Shown here: one piece after another, positions 9,435 to 19,633 of the stretch
How positions within the stretch are numbered: position 1 is the stretch's first letter
Layout of the letters: every line of letters begins with the position of its first letter
Source of the DNA: Methanolobus sp. ZRKC5
GTDB taxonomy: Archaea > Halobacteriota > Methanosarcinia > Methanosarcinales > Methanosarcinaceae
NCBI RefSeq assembly: GCF_038446525.1
Contig: NZ_CP151792.1
Location: forward strand, 2,914,001 to 2,978,000
Direction: 5' to 3'
Length of the DNA stretch: 64,000 nt
Notes under the pieces: model-generated
Database searches by the model: none
What the model saw: the letters and a program-made list of their open reading frames with translations, nothing else
What the model was told of the DNA's origin: nothing
Made by a program: the position numbers and the translations under genes

Positions 9435-10541
9435 TTAATACCGTTTCCTGAAGAACACAAAGAACGCCATGAAGATGGAAATTGGTGTTAATATGTGGCC
9501 CAATGGTGCTGATGGCTCAGTTTCTTCTTCAAAGGGTTCAAGGGTAGCATCTTCCGGAAGGTAAAGTTCGGTTTCAGGGTGGAAGGCATACCATGCAAAC
9601 CAGAAATCTCGCTCCTTCACTATTTCCTCACCAGTATCCATGTTTGTGATGGTAACAATTCCGGCTTCATCTCTTTTGATCATGATATTCATGCCGGCAA
9701 CAGTATCTTCTATTTCACCCATTTCAATAAGATCATCTTCACGGTAAGCTTTGAAAATGGCATTCACCTCTACACCAAATATCACTGTTTTGGGGTGCAC
9801 ACTCCTGTCTATATCCTCAACCGGGAAGAATACGAAAGTGTTCTCGTAATAATTTCCATAGGGATCATTTCCATAGGGCCTGTCAAATCCTGTATCCTGG
9901 CTCAATACCTCTGAGTCCGGATGCACTGCTTTCCATCCCCTCCAGGGCACGGTATCTATGGAAATGGAAATGAGCTCCATCCCTGTAAGTTCTCCCACGA
10001 TGGCCTGTCCTCCTATTTGGGTCCAGTAGGAGTTTGTTTTCCTGTCATACATCACAAGATTTGAATTGTAGAGTTTTCCGGATGTGCCAAACTCTACTGT
10101 TTCCCCATTTATCGTACGTTTGTATGCTATCCCCGAACCACAAAGAGGACAGTAGCTTATGAGGATCGGCTCACCTTGAATATCTTCATTGACAATCTCA
10201 TGCCAGGTCATTATCTGTAGAGGATATACTCTCTTTGTGCCGTTATATATGAGTCCCAGAACCAGTTCATTATCAGCTATCCACTGGTCTGCTTCCTCAA
10301 CTGTGACAAATTTAGGATCATCTATGGATGGTATACCGTCCATTGGTGGTCCTCCTGAAACTATATCTTCGGGATCAACTATGTATCTTACACCCATTTC
10401 CGTGAGCATTATGCCCTGTTCTTTTTCCATCTCTGTAAGCTCAGGCAGCTTTTCTAAAAGATCTTCTTCCTGTGCAGACCCGCTTATAGCAAACATGCAG
10501 ACCACTAACAAAAAAACTGCAATTATACGTAGGATTCTCAT
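9435..10541 (-). CDS. DUF3179 domain protein, exported
   Basis: 368 residues with an N-terminal signal peptide (ILRIIAVFLLVVCMFAISGSA) and a C-terminal hydrophobic anchor (ILTPISIFMAFFVFFRKRY). The body is a DUF3179 domain, recognisable by ISYCPLCGSGIAY and FGTSGKLYNSNLVMYDR; the CPLC pair could bind metal or form a redox disulfide. Biochemical function is unknown for the family. Its ATG overlaps the stop of the CcdA-like gene by 4 bases, so it is the last gene of a translationally coupled operon of thioredoxin, CcdA and DUF3179, which suggests that its cysteines are kept reduced by those partners (inference). Confidence 0.85.
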   Translation of the reverse strand: MRILRIIAVFLLVVCMFAISGSAQEEDLLEKLPELTEMEKEQGIMLTEMGVRYIVDPEDIVSGGPPMDGIPSIDDPKFVTVEEADQWIADNELVLGLIYNGTKRVYPLQIMTWHEIVNEDIQGEPILISYCPLCGSGIAYKRTINGETVEFGTSGKLYNSNLVMYDRKTNSYWTQIGGQAIVGELTGMELISISIDTVPWRGWKAVHPDSEVLSQDTGFDRPYGNDPYGNYYENTFVFFPVEDIDRSVHPKTVIFGVEVNAIFKAYREDDLIEMGEIEDTVAGMNIMIKRDEAGIVTITNMDTGEEIVKERDFWFAWYAFHPETELYLPEDATLEPFEEETEPSAPLGHILTPISIFMAFFVFFRKRY

Positions 10542-11227
10542 ATTATTATCTCCTGTACCCTGAACACGAATATAAGATAATATAACGAAATTACCAACAT
10601 GAATAAACCTGCAAAAAGATTGATCTTCCTTTTATACTGAACAAGGAAACTTATAATCTTCATGCTTTTTGTCAGTGAAAGCAATGAGAAAACTATCAGA
10701 GGGAAACTTATCCCCAGTCCAAATGCAATGAAATTGAGCATATTCCCCACAAAGTCTATCGTTGTCAGGGTTTTGGCAAAAAGGGCAGCAATAAACCCGG
10801 GATTGCAGGGAACTACTACAGCCCCAAAGAAGAAGCCATAAAGAAAAGCAGTTATCAGAGGATTTCTTCCATCTGAAACGTTTTTCTGCGGAAAGAATTT
10901 GCCCAGATCATAATCCATTATCAGCAGTATGCTGAGAACAAAGAGTATTCCAAATGCTATAGGTGATACTATCCCCACAACCTTTGTCAGGGAAACCTGA
11001 AGTATTGTTGTGAAAATAAGTCCCAGCAAGGTCATAAAAACAATTACACCAGCACTGATGAGAATTCCAAAAAACACTGGAAGCTTTCTGTTCTCTTCAT
11101 TTCCTGACATCTGGTCGGAAAGATATGCAAGAAATGCAGGGTACAGTGGCAGTACGCAGATTGCTGTAAGCGGAGTTAGTAAACCCAGGAAAAAAGAAGT
11201 GAAAAGATTAGCAAAGAAGCTTATCAT
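10538..11227 (-). CDS. ccdA: CcdA/DsbD-type thiol-disulfide transmembrane protein
   Basis: 229 residues with about six membrane helices. Conserved features are the N-terminal TPLTAICVLPLYPAFLAYL segment, with one of the two redox cysteines, and VVPCNPGF in the fourth helix, with the other. CcdA moves electrons from cytoplasmic thioredoxin across the membrane to extracytoplasmic thioredoxin-like proteins. The gene follows the TlpA-like gene with no spacer and overlaps the DUF3179 start, fitting a three-gene export-side redox pathway. Confidence 0.85.
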   Translation of the reverse strand: MISFFANLFTSFFLGLLTPLTAICVLPLYPAFLAYLSDQMSGNEENRKLPVFFGILISAGVIVFMTLLGLIFTTILQVSLTKVVGIVSPIAFGILFVLSILLIMDYDLGKFFPQKNVSDGRNPLITAFLYGFFFGAVVVPCNPGFIAALFAKTLTTIDFVGNMLNFIAFGLGISFPLIVFSLLSLTKSMKIISFLVQYKRKINLFAGLFMLVISLYYLIFVFRVQEIII

Positions 11228-11228
11228 T

Positions 11229-11762
11229 TCAACACCCTTGGTCTAGCTCTTCCTGCAAGTCCTCCGGTGATTTCACACCTCTTGCCATGAGTCTTGCAGA
11301 CTGGTCCTCACATATCAGCACTACAGGAGCACTGGGAGCCACTACAACCTGTGGACCTAACTCATCTATCATGGAACGTGTCATTTCAGGCGGAGCAATG
11401 GCAAAGTACCAATCAAAACCATTATTTTCAAAATACTCCCTCACCTGCTCTTCATCTTCATTCGGATCGGTGTCTAGGGAAATATGTACCACATTATTAC
11501 TGGTATTACCCTCAGTTAACCGGAAAGTTTGAACCTCTTTTTGTTGCTTCAAACAGGTAGGACACCAGACAGCAAAACTCTCAAGCATCACAGGACTCCC
11601 TTTAAAATCACTGATCCTGAAAGTCTCACCAGTTGCTATATCCGTAAGTTCCGTGTCCCGCCAATCAACTAAGGTATCTTCTGTAGTCTGTTCAACGCAT
11701 CCCACAACCAATATTACTGAAATTATGAAAGAAAAAACAAAAATATTCTTTAAAATATGCAT
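11229..11762 (-). CDS. TlpA-like thioredoxin lipoprotein
   Basis: 177 residues. A lipoprotein signal ends in VVGC (Cys22), so the protein is probably lipid-anchored outside the membrane. A thioredoxin/redoxin fold follows: NFKG-type loop (ISDFKGSPVMLESF), active site WCPTC, and a cis-Pro region near VAPSAPV. It is first in the operon with the CcdA-like gene, which would keep its CPTC pair reduced; the likely client is the DUF3179 protein or c-type cytochrome thiols (inference). Confidence 0.85.
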   Translation of the reverse strand: MHILKNIFVFSFIISVILVVGCVEQTTEDTLVDWRDTELTDIATGETFRISDFKGSPVMLESFAVWCPTCLKQQKEVQTFRLTEGNTSNNVVHISLDTDPNEDEEQVREYFENNGFDWYFAIAPPEMTRSMIDELGPQVVVAPSAPVVLICEDQSARLMARGVKSPEDLQEELDQGC

Positions 11763-11983
11763 GTATGACCCCCATTAAATCTAGGATGCGATTTCAAATA
11801 AAGATTGTGTTGTCAAATTTTCAAAATGTTATTACTGCAATTTATACTCATCAACAAAAGCAATATTGGATTATTACTGAGCAAGTGGCATTTCCATAGC
11901 CTTGTTTATATAATACTGCATATATTAGTTAAGTGATACTATTTGCCTTATTGTTCAAAGTATAACATATCTAGTTGCAAAAA

Positions 11984-11990
11984 GAGGTGA
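11984..11990 (+). promoter_or_regulatory. Ribosome binding site fixing a TTG start
   Basis: GAGGTGA sits four bases before TTG 11995. No ATG lies near in frame and the signal segment follows at once, so this decides the start of the channel protein. Confidence 0.7.
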
Positions 11991-11994
11991 CGAA

Positions 11995-14130
11995 TTGCCC
12001 ACCCATAGTAATAATTATAAAAAATTAATATCAACAGTAGCATTGATAACATTGATCGTAAGCTTTTTTGCGGTCGTTGGTTTTGGACACAACCTTGTTT
12101 ATTCTACAGATAAGATGTTGGAAACATCAATCGATTCCGCCAGGCTTGAAGCACAGAGCTCCGCAGAACAGGTTTCATTAAACCTGATGGTTCTTTCAGA
12201 TGTATCCCAATCAATTGCTTCTGATCTGAGTTCCGGGGAATTGAAAGAAGAACAGGTAGAAGAAAGACTCTATGAAGCTATCGATTCCGAATCAGATATC
12301 TTTGGAGTGGGCGTAGCATACGAAAAAGATGCAGCCCTAATATATGGAAACGATTCACTATCAAAACATCCCTATGCTCCAACATATTCCAGAAAAAATG
12401 GTGAACCACAATTTATCCAATTAGCCTACGATTATACTGTTATACCCGATGAAACTGGTGAAGGTCAAAATACAGAATGGTATCATCGAGCTTTAGCCCA
12501 GGGTAGCGGATGGAATGAGCCATATTTTGAATTACAGAGTGACAAGTTCATTCTTGAATATTCAATTCCTTTTACATCTGAATATGCCGATCAGAAAAAA
12601 ATAGACCCTGCAGGAGTTGTCTATGCAAGTTATTCCCTTGAAGAATTGAGGAATACTATAAGTTCACTGGAACTGGGAAAAACAGGATACGGGTTTATAG
12701 TCTCAAAGGACGGAGATGTCATATCCCATCCCATAAAAAATTATGTCTGCAATAATATTGTCAATATTTCAAAAACTGATGATGTGTTCAGACAGATAAC
12801 CAGCGATATAGCCCCAGGCAGTATCAATACTGTTTATGAAGTTGAAAGTGGAAATAAGCTATGGGTATTCTATGAAGAGATTCCCTCAACAGATTGGGTC
12901 CTTGGTATCGTCCTAAAAGATGAAGAAGTCCTGTATCAAATGAATCAGGATCAATATTATCAGAAGATATATTTTTCATTGGCAATTACAGCATTTTTAG
13001 TATCCATTTTCATTCTGAGTTTTATAAGAAATCCAATCAGCACACGCTCCTTGTGGAAAATTGCGATAATATTCTCCATCCTATGTTTTATTGAGACAGG
13101 TTTCATTTGGAATCTTGCCCTGAACAACACGGTTTCTGAAAATATAGATGACATTATCATCTATGACAAAACCAGCCTTGACAGTTCTTTGGAGAAAATA
13201 TACCTCACCGAACTGGACAACATGGATGAGGATTACGCTGATTCAATAATCAAGATCCCAACTGGAATATTCATCCAATCTCTTGAATTCTCAACGGGAA
13301 GTAATGTGATAGTTACTGGTTATGTCTGGCAGAAGCATACAGAAGGTGTTAACGATGATTACGTTTCGGGAGTTATTTTTCCAGAGTCGGACCATACTGT
13401 AATCAATAAAACCTATGAAAAGGATGATGTTACAGGATGGCATTTCAGAACAACACTGCGTGAACAATTTGATTATATAACTTATCCTTTTGATATGGAA
13501 ACTGTCTGGATCAGATTATGGAGTGACAGTTTTGAAAGCAACGTAATCCTGGTTCCGGACTTGGAGTCATATGACCTGATAGTTCCGGAAGCAAAACCTG
13601 GCATTGAAAAGGACTTTGTCCTTGAGGGCTGGGAAGCTGAGAAAAGTTATTTTTCTTATAGGATTAACGAATATGATACAAATTTTGGAATCGACGGCTA
13701 CAAGCATCAGGGAAACCCAGATCTCTATTTCAATATAGAGCTGAAAAGGGATATTGTGATGCCGTTCATCACATACATGGTTCCTTTACTATTAATAGCG
13801 CTATTGATATTTATTGCCCTCTTCACAGAAGTGAAAGCAGATTCTGATCCCTCGGAGATACTAAAATACAGCGCTTCATTGATGCTAGTATTGATGGTAG
13901 CACATGTTTCTCTACGAGACAACCTTACAGCTTCCGGTATTATTTACCTTGAGTACTTCTATATCATCATGTATTTGGTGGTGCTGGGTGTTTCTTTAAA
14001 TGCTCTCCTATTTGCATCAGACAAACAAATACCTGTGATAGATTATAAGGACAATATCTTTGCAAAACTGATCTACTGGCCTGCCGTTATGACATTGGTC
14101 CTGTTAGTGACAATTAGAACATTTTGCTAA
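11995..14130 (+). CDS. dCache sensor fused to a pentameric ligand-gated ion channel
   Basis: 711 residues. An N-terminal helix (~10-32) leads to an extracellular double-Cache domain (~35-315) with typical WYHRAL and GYGFIVSKDGDVISHP motifs. Two helices follow (~322-342, ~350-375), then a ~200-residue beta-rich extracellular domain with the Pro-loop-type YPFD motif (Y497-D500) and WIRLW. Four C-terminal helices are arranged as M1 to M4: M1 ~585-608 with the PLLLIALL run, M2 ~618-640 containing MVAH (His637), then M3 and M4. The M2-M3 region resembles that of the bacterial channel GLIC (..LIAHIAF..NL..). The predicted role is a cation or anion channel gated by a small extracellular ligand, with Cache as an extra ligand sensor. 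No conserved operon partner adjoins. Confidence 0.78.
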   Translation: MPTHSNNYKKLISTVALITLIVSFFAVVGFGHNLVYSTDKMLETSIDSARLEAQSSAEQVSLNLMVLSDVSQSIASDLSSGELKEEQVEERLYEAIDSESDIFGVGVAYEKDAALIYGNDSLSKHPYAPTYSRKNGEPQFIQLAYDYTVIPDETGEGQNTEWYHRALAQGSGWNEPYFELQSDKFILEYSIPFTSEYADQKKIDPAGVVYASYSLEELRNTISSLELGKTGYGFIVSKDGDVISHPIKNYVCNNIVNISKTDDVFRQITSDIAPGSINTVYEVESGNKLWVFYEEIPSTDWVLGIVLKDEEVLYQMNQDQYYQKIYFSLAITAFLVSIFILSFIRNPISTRSLWKIAIIFSILCFIETGFIWNLALNNTVSENIDDIIIYDKTSLDSSLEKIYLTELDNMDEDYADSIIKIPTGIFIQSLEFSTGSNVIVTGYVWQKHTEGVNDDYVSGVIFPESDHTVINKTYEKDDVTGWHFRTTLREQFDYITYPFDMETVWIRLWSDSFESNVILVPDLESYDLIVPEAKPGIEKDFVLEGWEAEKSYFSYRINEYDTNFGIDGYKHQGNPDLYFNIELKRDIVMPFITYMVPLLLIALLIFIALFTEVKADSDPSEILKYSASLMLVLMVAHVSLRDNLTASGIIYLEYFYIIMYLVVLGVSLNALLFASDKQIPVIDYKDNIFAKLIYWPAVMTLVLLVTIRTFC

Positions 14131-15854: not shown

Positions 15855-16436
15855 ATGCTTGATATAGATTCATTTTCTAGATACTTGAATATTTTCCTGT
15901 TCCTTGTACTAGTTAATTCACTCTTATCAAGATTTGCACTGATCAATTCCCCAATATCACCTGCACCGGGAGTTTCCAGCATGTATTTTGCTGTTGCATT
16001 CATGATAATATTTGCCCTATGGTATGGAATATGGGGTGCTTTTTCTGCATATCTTGGATGCATGATAGGAGCTGGTATCCTTGCAGATATGCCTTTTTCG
16101 GTGAATGTGATATGGTCACTTGCTGACCTGTGGCAGGTACTCATACCTCTGGCTGCTTTTGCATATTTCAAAGTGAACATCAGAATGCGAACAAAAAAAG
16201 ATATTGCTGTTTTTGTCATTTTTGCCTGCCTGCTAAACAATCTGGTTGGCGCTCTATGGGGCGCATTTATGCTGGCATTCAATGGCATTATCCAATGGAC
16301 AGAGTTTTTTGTGACATTTGAAGGATGGTTTATAGGTAATTTGGTAACTACCCTGATAATCGTACCTTTGTTACTCCGATTTGTAACCCCATATGTCCAA
16401 CAAACGAAGTCTTATGTACGCGGATACTGGATTTGA
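15855..16436 (+). CDS. Integral membrane protein, MASE1-like
   Basis: 193 residues with five or six hydrophobic helices and a glycine-rich middle (YGIWGAFSAYLGCMIGAG). It resembles the MASE1-type membrane sensor module or a small transporter subunit, but it lacks an attached output domain. It could act with the kinase encoded 129 bp downstream (inference). The first ATG is used; no clear ribosome binding site is visible. It cannot be assigned a function. Confidence 0.5.
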   Translation: MLDIDSFSRYLNIFLFLVLVNSLLSRFALINSPISPAPGVSSMYFAVAFMIIFALWYGIWGAFSAYLGCMIGAGILADMPFSVNVIWSLADLWQVLIPLAAFAYFKVNIRMRTKKDIAVFVIFACLLNNLVGALWGAFMLAFNGIIQWTEFFVTFEGWFIGNLVTTLIIVPLLLRFVTPYVQQTKSYVRGYWI

Positions 16437-16564: not shown

Positions 16565-19500
16565 ATGTCTTCAAAAAACAATAATCCTTATGCTTTTAAC
16601 CTTGAAACGGATTCAATGGACCTTTGGGAAGATGGTATCATTGTATTATCACCAGATGAAACCATTTCTTATACAAATAAAAGCTGGAAAGACTTTGTAC
16701 ACAATAATGATCTTAATTCCTTTAAACGCACTGATAAAGCTAATTATCTTCCATTTTTAGATGAAATTACAGCTGAAAGACCGGATAATGCAATTAATCC
16801 AGCAACAGGAATAAGAGATATCATTAATGGCAAAATGAATATATTCAAGCTCGAATATCCCCTCCAGGCTCCTGATGGAAAACACTGGTATTTGATAAAA
16901 GTTCAGCCACTTTCTATAAATTATCCCACTGCTGTCATTTTGCAACATATCGATATAAGTAAAAGAAAAAATGTAGAATTCGATCTGCTTGAATCTAAAA
17001 AACAGATTCGTAACGTCCTTAATAACACACAACTTGTCGAGATAATGCTAGACCCAAAGGGAAATATCATTTACTGCAATGATTTTTTACTTGAACTAAC
17101 CGGATGGGATAAAGAACATGTGTTTAACAAAAACTGGTTTGACATGTTCCTACCTTCAGAGATTGTCCCTGAGATCAAGGCAGTTTTTTCAAAGACCATC
17201 AAAGAAGGCAGTCTGCCTTCATATAACAAGAATGAAATTGTTACAAAAGACGGAATCGAAAGAGCAATTGTCTGGAACAATACTGTCATTAAGGACATAG
17301 AGGGCAAGATCAGAAGTATAGTTTGCATTGGTGAAGACATAACAGATCATCAACTTACAGAGAAGTCACTGCTTAATAGCAGAGGACAATTACGCACATT
17401 AGTAAATACAATTCCAGATCTGGTCTGGCTAAAAGATGTTAATGGTACTTACCTGAGATGTAATACTAAATTCGAGCGCTTCTTTGGCGCAAAGGAAGAA
17501 GAAATTGCCGGGAAGACGGACTATGACTTTGTGGACAAAGAACTGGCAGACCTTTTCACACAGAAAGACAAAGAAGCAATGCAAGCAGGTAAACCCTCCA
17601 TAAATGAAGAGGAAATCACTTATGCTGATGATGGGCACAAGGAATATCTTGAAACTATCAAATGTCCGATGTATAATTCGAATGGACAATTGATAGGAAT
17701 ACTGGGTGTTGGTAGGGATATAACTCAGCGCAAGTATGCAGATGAAGAATTGAAAAGAAGAGAATTGCAACTACAGACAGCACAGGAAATTGGGCGCTTT
17801 GGAAGTTGGGAGTTTGATTTCACTTCAGGGAAGATGGATATTTCAGAGGAAGCCGCCAAGATATATGGTCTGGTAAGTAAACATTGCACTATCAGAGAAA
17901 TACAAGAAATAGCTTTACCGGAATACCGACCGATCTTGGATAAAGCACTAAAAGCTCTACTGGAAAAAAAATTGCCATATGATGTACAGTTCAGGATTAA
18001 CAGGCAAAATGATGATGATATTCGGGATATACATTCAGTGGCAGAATTCTTCGCTGAACGAAATGTAGTTATTGGAACGATCCAGGATATTACCGAACGA
18101 AAACAAGCAGAGGAAAAACTGCGCGAAAACGATGCTCTTCTGAATGAAGTTGGCAGTATTGCAAAGGTTGGTGGTTGGGAGTTTTATGTACCATCCGGCG
18201 AGGGTACATGGACATCCGAAGTTGCAAGAATCCATGAAGTAGATCCCAATGATCCTACAAGTATTGATCTTGGGTTGAGCTTTTATCTTCCCGGCTCAAG
18301 AGAGCTTGTTGAAAAAGCTGTCCAGAATGCTGTGGAAAAGGCTGAACCATATGATCTTGAATTGGAATTAATCTCGGCGAAAGGAAAGCATAAATGGATT
18401 CGGACAATTGGTCATCCTATAATAAAAAATGATAAAGTTGTAAAAGTAGTTGGTTCATTTCAGGACATTACAGAACGTAAGCAGACTGAACTGAAAATGG
18501 CTGAAGAAGCCATTAGAAGACGTATCTTTATTGAGCAATCCAGCGATGGGATAGTTGTCCTTGACCAAAATTGCAAGGTTTACGAGGTGAACCAGAAATA
18601 TGCGGATATGCTTGGTTATTCACATGAGGAAGCTCTTCAGTTACACCTTTGGGATTGGGACACTCAATGGACACGTGACGACTTAATTGAAATGTTCAAT
18701 AATGTTGATAACACAGGTGACCATTTTGAAACGCTCCACCGTCGCAAGGACGGCACTTTCATTGATGTTGAAGTTAGTTCAAATGGAGCTATGTTTGGGG
18801 AGCAGAAACTGGTTTTTTGCGTGTGCAGAGATATTACCGAAAGAAAACATGCTGAAGATACACTACTACATGCTAAAATAATAGCTGAAGCAGCTAACAG
18901 AACAAAATCAGAATTCCTTGCTAATATGAGCCATGAACTACGTACACCACTTAATTCAATTTACGGTTTTTCACAATTATTGAACGAGAAAATTCCAGGT
19001 GAATTGAACGAGAAACAAAACAATTATGTATCCAATGTTCTCAAAAGCAGTAAACATCTAATAGAGCTTATTAACGATATTCTTGACCTTTCAAAGGTTG
19101 AAGCCGGGAAGATGGAACTTGAATGTGAATATTTTAAAATCGCAAACATACTAGATGAAATTGTGACATCCATGCAACCGATTGCAAGAAAGAAATACAT
19201 CACCATCAGAACTATAATTGAAATTGATGACATGGAAATATATGCTGATAAGAAGAAAATAAAAGATGTTATGTACAATCTACTGTCCAATGCTGTCAAA
19301 TTTACATCGGAAAATGGAAAAATCCATGTCAATGCAAGTTGTCACGATGATAAATTACAGATTTTCGTTGCAGATGATGGCATTGGTATTTCAAAAGATG
19401 AAATACAAGAAATATTCAAACCCTTTAAACAGGTTGATAGCTTCTTAACTCGCGAATTCGAAGGAACTGGCCTGGGTCTTGCAATTACAAAGAAATATGT

Positions 19501-19633
19501 GGAAATGCACGGAGGCAATATCTATGTTGAAAGCAAACCTAAGCAGGGCAGTACTTTTACTTTTATGATACCTGTTGAAATGAAAGGTCAGATTATGCAA
19601 ACATCAAGACAAAACACACTAAAATCATTCTAA
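16565..19633 (+). CDS. Multi-PAS sensor histidine kinase (1022 aa)
   Basis: A soluble kinase with about six PAS domains (roughly 30-140, 145-265, 275-395, 400-515, 520-645, 655-770), several with DITERK ends, then HisKA with His790 (MSHELRTPLNSIYGFSQ) and HATPase ([30 protein letters not shown]). The fifth PAS (NEVGSIAKVGGWEF) matches one in the disrupted kinase at 42125-45874, and the sixth plus kinase core matches the truncated kinase at 7667-9075. A run of AT-rich TATA-like sequence (about 16505-16550) precedes the ATG. Several PAS have the GWEF/GSWEF type, possibly redox or small-molecule sensing. Confidence 0.85.
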   Translation: MSSKNNNPYAFNLETDSMDLWEDGIIVLSPDETISYTNKSWKDFVHNNDLNSFKRTDKANYLPFLDEITAERPDNAINPATGIRDIINGKMNIFKLEYPLQAPDGKHWYLIKVQPLSINYPTAVILQHIDISKRKNVEFDLLESKKQIRNVLNNTQLVEIMLDPKGNIIYCNDFLLELTGWDKEHVFNKNWFDMFLPSEIVPEIKAVFSKTIKEGSLPSYNKNEIVTKDGIERAIVWNNTVIKDIEGKIRSIVCIGEDITDHQLTEKSLLNSRGQLRTLVNTIPDLVWLKDVNGTYLRCNTKFERFFGAKEEEIAGKTDYDFVDKELADLFTQKDKEAMQAGKPSINEEEITYADDGHKEYLETIKCPMYNSNGQLIGILGVGRDITQRKYADEELKRRELQLQTAQEIGRFGSWEFDFTSGKMDISEEAAKIYGLVSKHCTIREIQEIALPEYRPILDKALKALLEKKLPYDVQFRINRQNDDDIRDIHSVAEFFAERNVVIGTIQDITERKQAEEKLRENDALLNEVGSIAKVGGWEFYVPSGEGTWTSEVARIHEVDPNDPTSIDLGLSFYLPGSRELVEKAVQNAVEKAEPYDLELELISAKGKHKWIRTIGHPIIKNDKVVKVVGSFQDITERKQTELKMAEEAIRRRIFIEQSSDGIVVLDQNCKVYEVNQKYADMLGYSHEEALQLHLWDWDTQWTRDDLIEMFNNVDNTGDHFETLHRRKDGTFIDVEVSSNGAMFGEQKLVFCVCRDITERKHAEDTLLHAKIIAEAANRTKSEFLANMSHELRTPLNSIYGFSQLLNEKIPGELNEKQNNYVSNVLKSSKHLIELINDILDLSKVEAGKMELECEYFKIANILDEIVTSMQPIARKKYITIRTIIEIDDMEIYADKKKIKDVMYNLLSNAVKFTSENGKIHVNASCHDDKLQIFVADDGIGISKDEIQEIFKPFKQVDSFLTREFEGTGLGLAITKKYVEMHGGNIYVESKPKQGSTFTFMIPVEMKGQIMQTSRQNTLKSF

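Follow-up and report, generated by a model that had tools for sequence, protein, structure and literature searches.

A single gene of Methanolobus sp. ZRKC5 raises the question of whether one archaeal polypeptide can couple a chemoreceptor-like sensor to a ligand-gated pore. The gene lies at positions 11995..14130 of the window, i.e., the whole 64,000-nucleotide stretch of DNA that was analyzed, in a genome assembled as a single contig of 3.05 Mb; it and all of its features described below are on the plus strand. The sequence-only reading of this locus had proposed that an archaeal protein combines a dCache sensor and two extra helices with a Pro-loop pLGIC module, and Pfam, profile searches, Foldseek, and VIA agree on this composition. 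We consider it probable that the predicted product is an archaeal Cache-sensor ligand-gated ion channel.

The gene and its domain order

The 711-codon coding sequence is supported by full-length relatives. Two relatives within the genus share its layout (67 and 44% identity), and the closer one is also 711 amino acids long and also starts with TTG. A Shine-Dalgarno-like GAGGTGA (11984..11990) 4 nt 5' of the TTG and a possible archaeal TATA box, TTTATATAA (11905..11913), are putative assignments read from the sequence. The gene stands alone, with minus-strand neighbors on both sides. On the left, a DUF3179 protein, a DsbD-like membrane protein, and a redoxin are encoded in a row (9435-11762, minus strand), likely as a redox or maturation operon, and on the right is a PAS histidine kinase. 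Farther on come a MASE1-like membrane protein (15855-16436, plus strand) and, after it, a multi-PAS histidine kinase of 1022 aa (16565-19633, plus strand), and three PAS kinases lie inside 12 kb of the window. We sought an operon partner conserved among the relatives and found none, the flanking genes being common to only three family members in the neighborhood comparison.

The gene is under purifying selection, with a dN/dS of about 0.15 in comparisons with two relatives (0.17/1.17 and 0.21/1.36), values that are rough because dS exceeds 1 in both pairs. Constraint is stronger on the channel, in which dN is about 0.11 and 0.16; the corresponding values for the dCache are 0.21 and 0.24. A chance fusion, an assembly error, or a decaying gene might be suspected from the patchy distribution, as the channel domain occurs in 15 of the 112 genomes of the family Methanosarcinaceae; this idea is refuted for practical purposes by the occurrence of full-length relatives with this layout in several phyla, by the lack of stops, and by the low dN/dS.

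The protein begins with one N-terminal membrane anchor, TM0 (residues 8-36; 12016..12102), placed by hydropathy, followed by the dCache and by two extra membrane helices, TM1 (residues 322-345; 12958..13029) and, after a short basic turn, TM2 (residues 349-378; 13039..13128). A Pro-loop pLGIC ligand-binding domain comes next, and then four helices, M1 (residues 588-614; 13756..13836), M2, M3 (residues 650-674; 13942..14016), and M4 (residues 688-710; 14056..14124). TM1 rests on hydropathy in the Cache-type relatives and on an AF2 helix at residues 314-345, TM2 on an AF2 helix spanning exactly its residues and on hydropathy, and M1, M3, and M4 on the AF2 model and hydropathy. Seven hydropathy peaks, of which the first precedes the sensor, the next two separate it from the channel, and the last four belong to the channel, are shared by the Cache-type relatives, and from them we derive a topology with the N terminus inside, the dCache outside, the short basic turn inside, and the ligand-binding domain outside. 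Only short loops are thus left in the cytoplasm, with no cytoplasmic signaling domain. The common layout was found in 31 dCache- or Cache-type relatives, and nearly all relatives have seven helices; one Cache-type relative shows just one helix of the TM1-TM2 pair by hydropathy. The conserved TM1-TM2 hairpin could carry a signal. We found no mention of this hairpin in the accessible texts, which is a weak negative. The AF2 models are of moderate confidence (pTM of 0.52-0.59 over the full-length and channel-only models), with a mean pLDDT of 68 for the full-length model, in which most dCache blocks exceed 70, and of 65 for the channel alone.

The pLGIC-like module and its predicted pore helix

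The sequence-only reading depended on the placement of residues ~380-711 in the pLGIC fold, and both profile and structure searches retrieve pLGICs for this part throughout the matches listed, GLIC foremost. Pfam and NCBIfam gave no convincing match to about residues 380-711, and a PF02931 search is uninformative, as it returned nothing in the protein's own genome and nothing in any control genome either. A profile of seven relatives, two of which are standalone 319-aa proteins of a different archaeal family within the phylum, had its best PDB match in a GLIC-GABA-A chimera (E value of 1.9e-15), with GLIC itself at about 1e-12, and all 60 of the matches listed were GLIC or GLIC chimeras. When the profile was built from dCache-type members only, with the standalone proteins left out, the E value to GLIC was 8e-4, and a profile of the ligand-binding domain alone, from which the membrane helices had been removed, gave about 1e-3, with GLIC again accounting for all 60 matches listed. 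The sequence link to GLIC that is left once the standalone archaeal relatives are removed is modest (1e-3).

Since dCache-type matches filled the list for the full-length model to the exclusion of any other domain, the channel was modeled alone. In this model, a helix at the N terminus leads into a beta-sandwich, which is followed by four helices, and the pLGIC ligand-binding domain with its N-terminal helix corresponds to residues 392-585 (13168..13749). Foldseek gave a best E value of 2.5e-12 to a GABA-A subunit, and the matches listed were all Cys-loop receptors. The comparison with GLIC that the sequence-only reading had called for, made with VIA on this channel-only model, gave a Z score of 14.7 and an rmsd of 5.4 A over 265 residues. 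Profiles, Foldseek, and VIA thus point to a ligand-binding beta-sandwich with four membrane helices after it, and by profile and predicted fold residues of about 390-711 are pLGIC-like. The aPaD motif is given as a signature of the pLGIC family by Tasneem et al. (PMC549065). The Pro-loop motif YPFD was correctly located at residues 497-500 (13483..13494) by the sequence-only reading, and together with the basic residues before M1 (KR, 584-585) it is widely kept in the relatives, most of which have Y/F-P-F/L/I-D, with N for D in several.

The predicted pore helix M2 (residues 619-647; 13849..13935) was numbered in a register of 31 rows anchored on R19', because Arg641 is Arg in 29 of them and aligns with the Arg of the GABA-A alpha1 chimera; in this respect the end of M2 resembles that of GABA-A receptors. 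The numbering places E621 at -1', K624 at 2', S628 at 6', L631 at 9', V635 at 13', H637 at 15', and R641 at 19'. The standalone relatives, anchored on Pro 23', yield the same register, with Ser at 6' and Leu at 9'. Across the 31 rows, 6' is Ser, Gly, or Ala only, 9' is Phe (28 rows) or Leu (3 rows), 13' is hydrophobic, and 15' is His or Gln. The expected pattern of small residues at 2' and 6' and a hydrophobic residue at 9' holds throughout, except that three sequences, including the window protein, have Lys2'; Leu9', Lys2', and Glu-1' are common to the window protein and two close relatives. Two features are unusual for a pLGIC, the Lys at 2' and the absence of the P23' that is normally present, and we found no description of a Lys2'/Leu9' pore such as that of this clade in the accessible literature. 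As far as can be judged from these residues, the cues to selectivity conflict, in that Glu at -1' would favor cations and Lys at 2' would not.

The claim of a GLIC-like His637 in M2 arose from a wrong register. The M2 His of GLIC is at 11', whereas His637 is at 15', and the 11' residue of the window protein (633) is Leu. His637 can be equated with GLIC H11' only if four residues are lost from the end of M2. Anchoring on Arg19', or on P23' in the standalone relatives, gives a canonical 6' and 9' instead, and the equation was rejected.

The pore might also be no pore at all, the pLGIC fold serving as a scaffold for a nonconducting receptor that signals by another route. The hydrophobic lining, in which Phe forms a ring at 9' in most relatives, would suit such a receptor, as would the Lys at 2' in the clade of the window protein; the conservation of small 2'/6' and hydrophobic 9'/13' residues in 31 sequences and the absence of a cytoplasmic signaling domain speak against it, and we regard it as quite unlikely.

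The dCache sensor and the suggested ligands

The predicted extracellular sensor (residues 37-321; 12103..12957) belongs to dCache_1. Pfam dCache_1 matches residues 145-305 with an E value of 1.5e-12 and 48 bits, above the cutoff of 45, and a phmmer search of PDB sequences retrieved the dCache domains of the chemoreceptors PctB and PctA (E values of 3e-8 and 7e-8). Furthermore, modeled residues 39-322 have the dCache fold, superposing on the dCache of PctD (7prq) with a Z score of 23.5 and an rmsd of 3.0 A over 270 aligned residues. The dCache_1 receptors and kinases PctA, PctD, and mmHK1S share this sensor fold and have membrane helices on either side, although their output is cytoplasmic and their known ligand motifs are not found in the window dCache.

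An amino acid or a methylamine had been suggested as the ligand. Methanogens of the Methanosarcinaceae live on methylamines. Trp162, Tyr163, and Tyr177 match conserved aromatic residues of dCache_1AA, the first two being general to dCache_1 and retained here. The charged residues that bind the ligand in both known motifs are absent. In the alignment, R126 of PctA, which functions in amino acid binding, is replaced by T160. D173 of PctA, which also has a role in the amino acid motif, is replaced by S212 (PMC10104139, PMC11245519). The amine motif of dCache_1AM includes D235 of PctD (PMC10104139, PMC11245519), and this residue, the one position of that motif that was mapped, likewise corresponds to S212. 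Position 212 is S, N, E, D, or T among the relatives, and since it varies, ligands probably differ within the family. A Methanosarcina mazei kinase does carry a dCache_1AM domain (PMC10104139), which lends the suggestion some weight; with T160 and S212 in place of the charges and position 212 so variable, sensing of amino acids or methylamines by the window protein nevertheless appears unlikely.

Relatives and a proposed mechanism

Proteins of the same layout also occur outside the Methanosarcinaceae, in cyanobacteria, an armatimonadote, and Vibrio, where replicons encode a relative at 24% identity over 99% of the length. Within the family, relatives include a 696-aa protein and, at L039:2948-6751 of a metagenome-assembled genome (G271), a 1267-aa protein whose extracellular part is greatly enlarged and contains two PDC-like stretches. 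The 696-aa relative, encoded at locus L085, is probably the protein already published by Tasneem et al. (2004). In a channel-domain tree of 35 rows, rooted by midpoint only, all 16 Cache-type rows from archaea group in a single clade (99/98) that is nested among bacterial ones, which is consistent with a single transfer from bacteria to archaea. The cyanobacterium Argonema has two adjacent Cache-type pLGIC genes (L135:4622-9410; 704 and 706 aa), possibly for a heteromeric channel. Shorter cyanobacterial relatives (L128-L132; 576-633 aa) have the membrane hairpin and a Pfam-poor sensor reduced to about 150 aa. Two further cyanobacterial proteins (L133:769-3108 and L134:491-2911) combine a pLGIC-like part with a periplasmic-binding-protein domain (Peripla_BP_6), which is the other fusion theme of Tasneem et al. 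(PMC549065).

The implied novelty of a Cache-pLGIC fusion was overstated. According to the 2004 paper by Tasneem et al., the fusion theme was predicted from genomes as a third architecture among bacterial ART-LGICs, in which MCP-N and Cache are fused to the receptor module, with Methanosarcina, Cytophaga, and Microbulbifer as hosts and a suggested role in chemotaxis (PMC549065). The window protein belongs to this MCP-N/Cache fusion kind, as it shares the theme, the Methanosarcina group, and the predicted chemoreceptor-like role, although that paper puts the extra domains between a signal peptide and the ligand-binding domain, and its accessible text makes no mention of two extra membrane helices (PMC549065). 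Beyond Tasneem et al., our search yielded no paper on Cache-pLGIC fusions, most subscription journals being beyond reach, and no experimental test of the pairing was found in the accessible literature.

Among solved channels, GLIC, the proton-gated channel of Gloeobacter violaceus, is the best relative by sequence and VIA and shares the Pro-loop ligand-binding domain and M1-M4, but it has no N-terminal domain, whereas the window protein has a dCache. DeCLIC, the Desulfofustis pLGIC, does have an added extracellular N-terminal domain and, according to a 2025 paper, is the sole pLGIC in which such a domain is partly characterized (PMC12664993). That domain consists of two jelly-roll lobes lying against the ligand-binding domain (PMC9897478), whereas the dCache of the window protein stands on its own membrane helices.

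For the predicted Cache-sensor channel, we propose that five identical subunits would assemble and that a small molecule outside the cell would bind the distal Cache lobe. The resulting movement would pass through TM0 and TM1, placed on either side of the dCache like the corresponding helices of chemoreceptors and histidine kinases, and would then travel through the hairpin into TM2 and on to the helix at the N terminus of the pLGIC domain. This movement might open the M2 pore by itself, or a second ligand, bound in the pLGIC domain, might contribute as well. Because the protein has no cytoplasmic signaling domain, its evident output would be ion flux, i.e., a change in membrane potential or ion content. 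We advance only tentatively the specific proposal of a class of pLGICs with seven helices, whose dCache would gate the pore via the TM1-TM2 hairpin and the N-terminal helix to which it leads in the ligand-binding domain. The turning of chemoreceptor-style helix signaling into gating was not found described for any pLGIC in the accessible literature.

It is also possible, if not very likely, that the pLGIC domain does both the sensing and the gating, as it does in GLIC, ELIC, and DeCLIC, and that the dCache only tunes, localizes, or assembles the channel. The extra N-terminal domain of DeCLIC is reported to influence gating kinetics (PMC9897478; PMC12664993), and the slower evolution of the channel part than of the dCache would fit such a division of labor. 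The same holds for a member on the Acaryochloris plasmid pREC1 (L139:2318-3778), which has lost the dCache and TM1, keeps one N-terminal helix and the channel, and has a C-terminal extension. Against this reading, almost all of the long relatives, from four separate phyla, retain the dCache.

If the protein is a Cache-sensor channel as predicted, a methane-making archaeon joins a sensor of the chemotaxis receptor type to a relative of the neurotransmitter channels of nerve cells. The point of interest is how a sensor on its own membrane helices would gate a pore, and this bears on the coupling of sensors common to chemoreceptors and calcium-channel subunits with neurotransmitter-receptor-like pores. 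The family offers many natural sensor-channel pairs, in which the soluble dCache could be used to identify a ligand before its effect on gating is studied.
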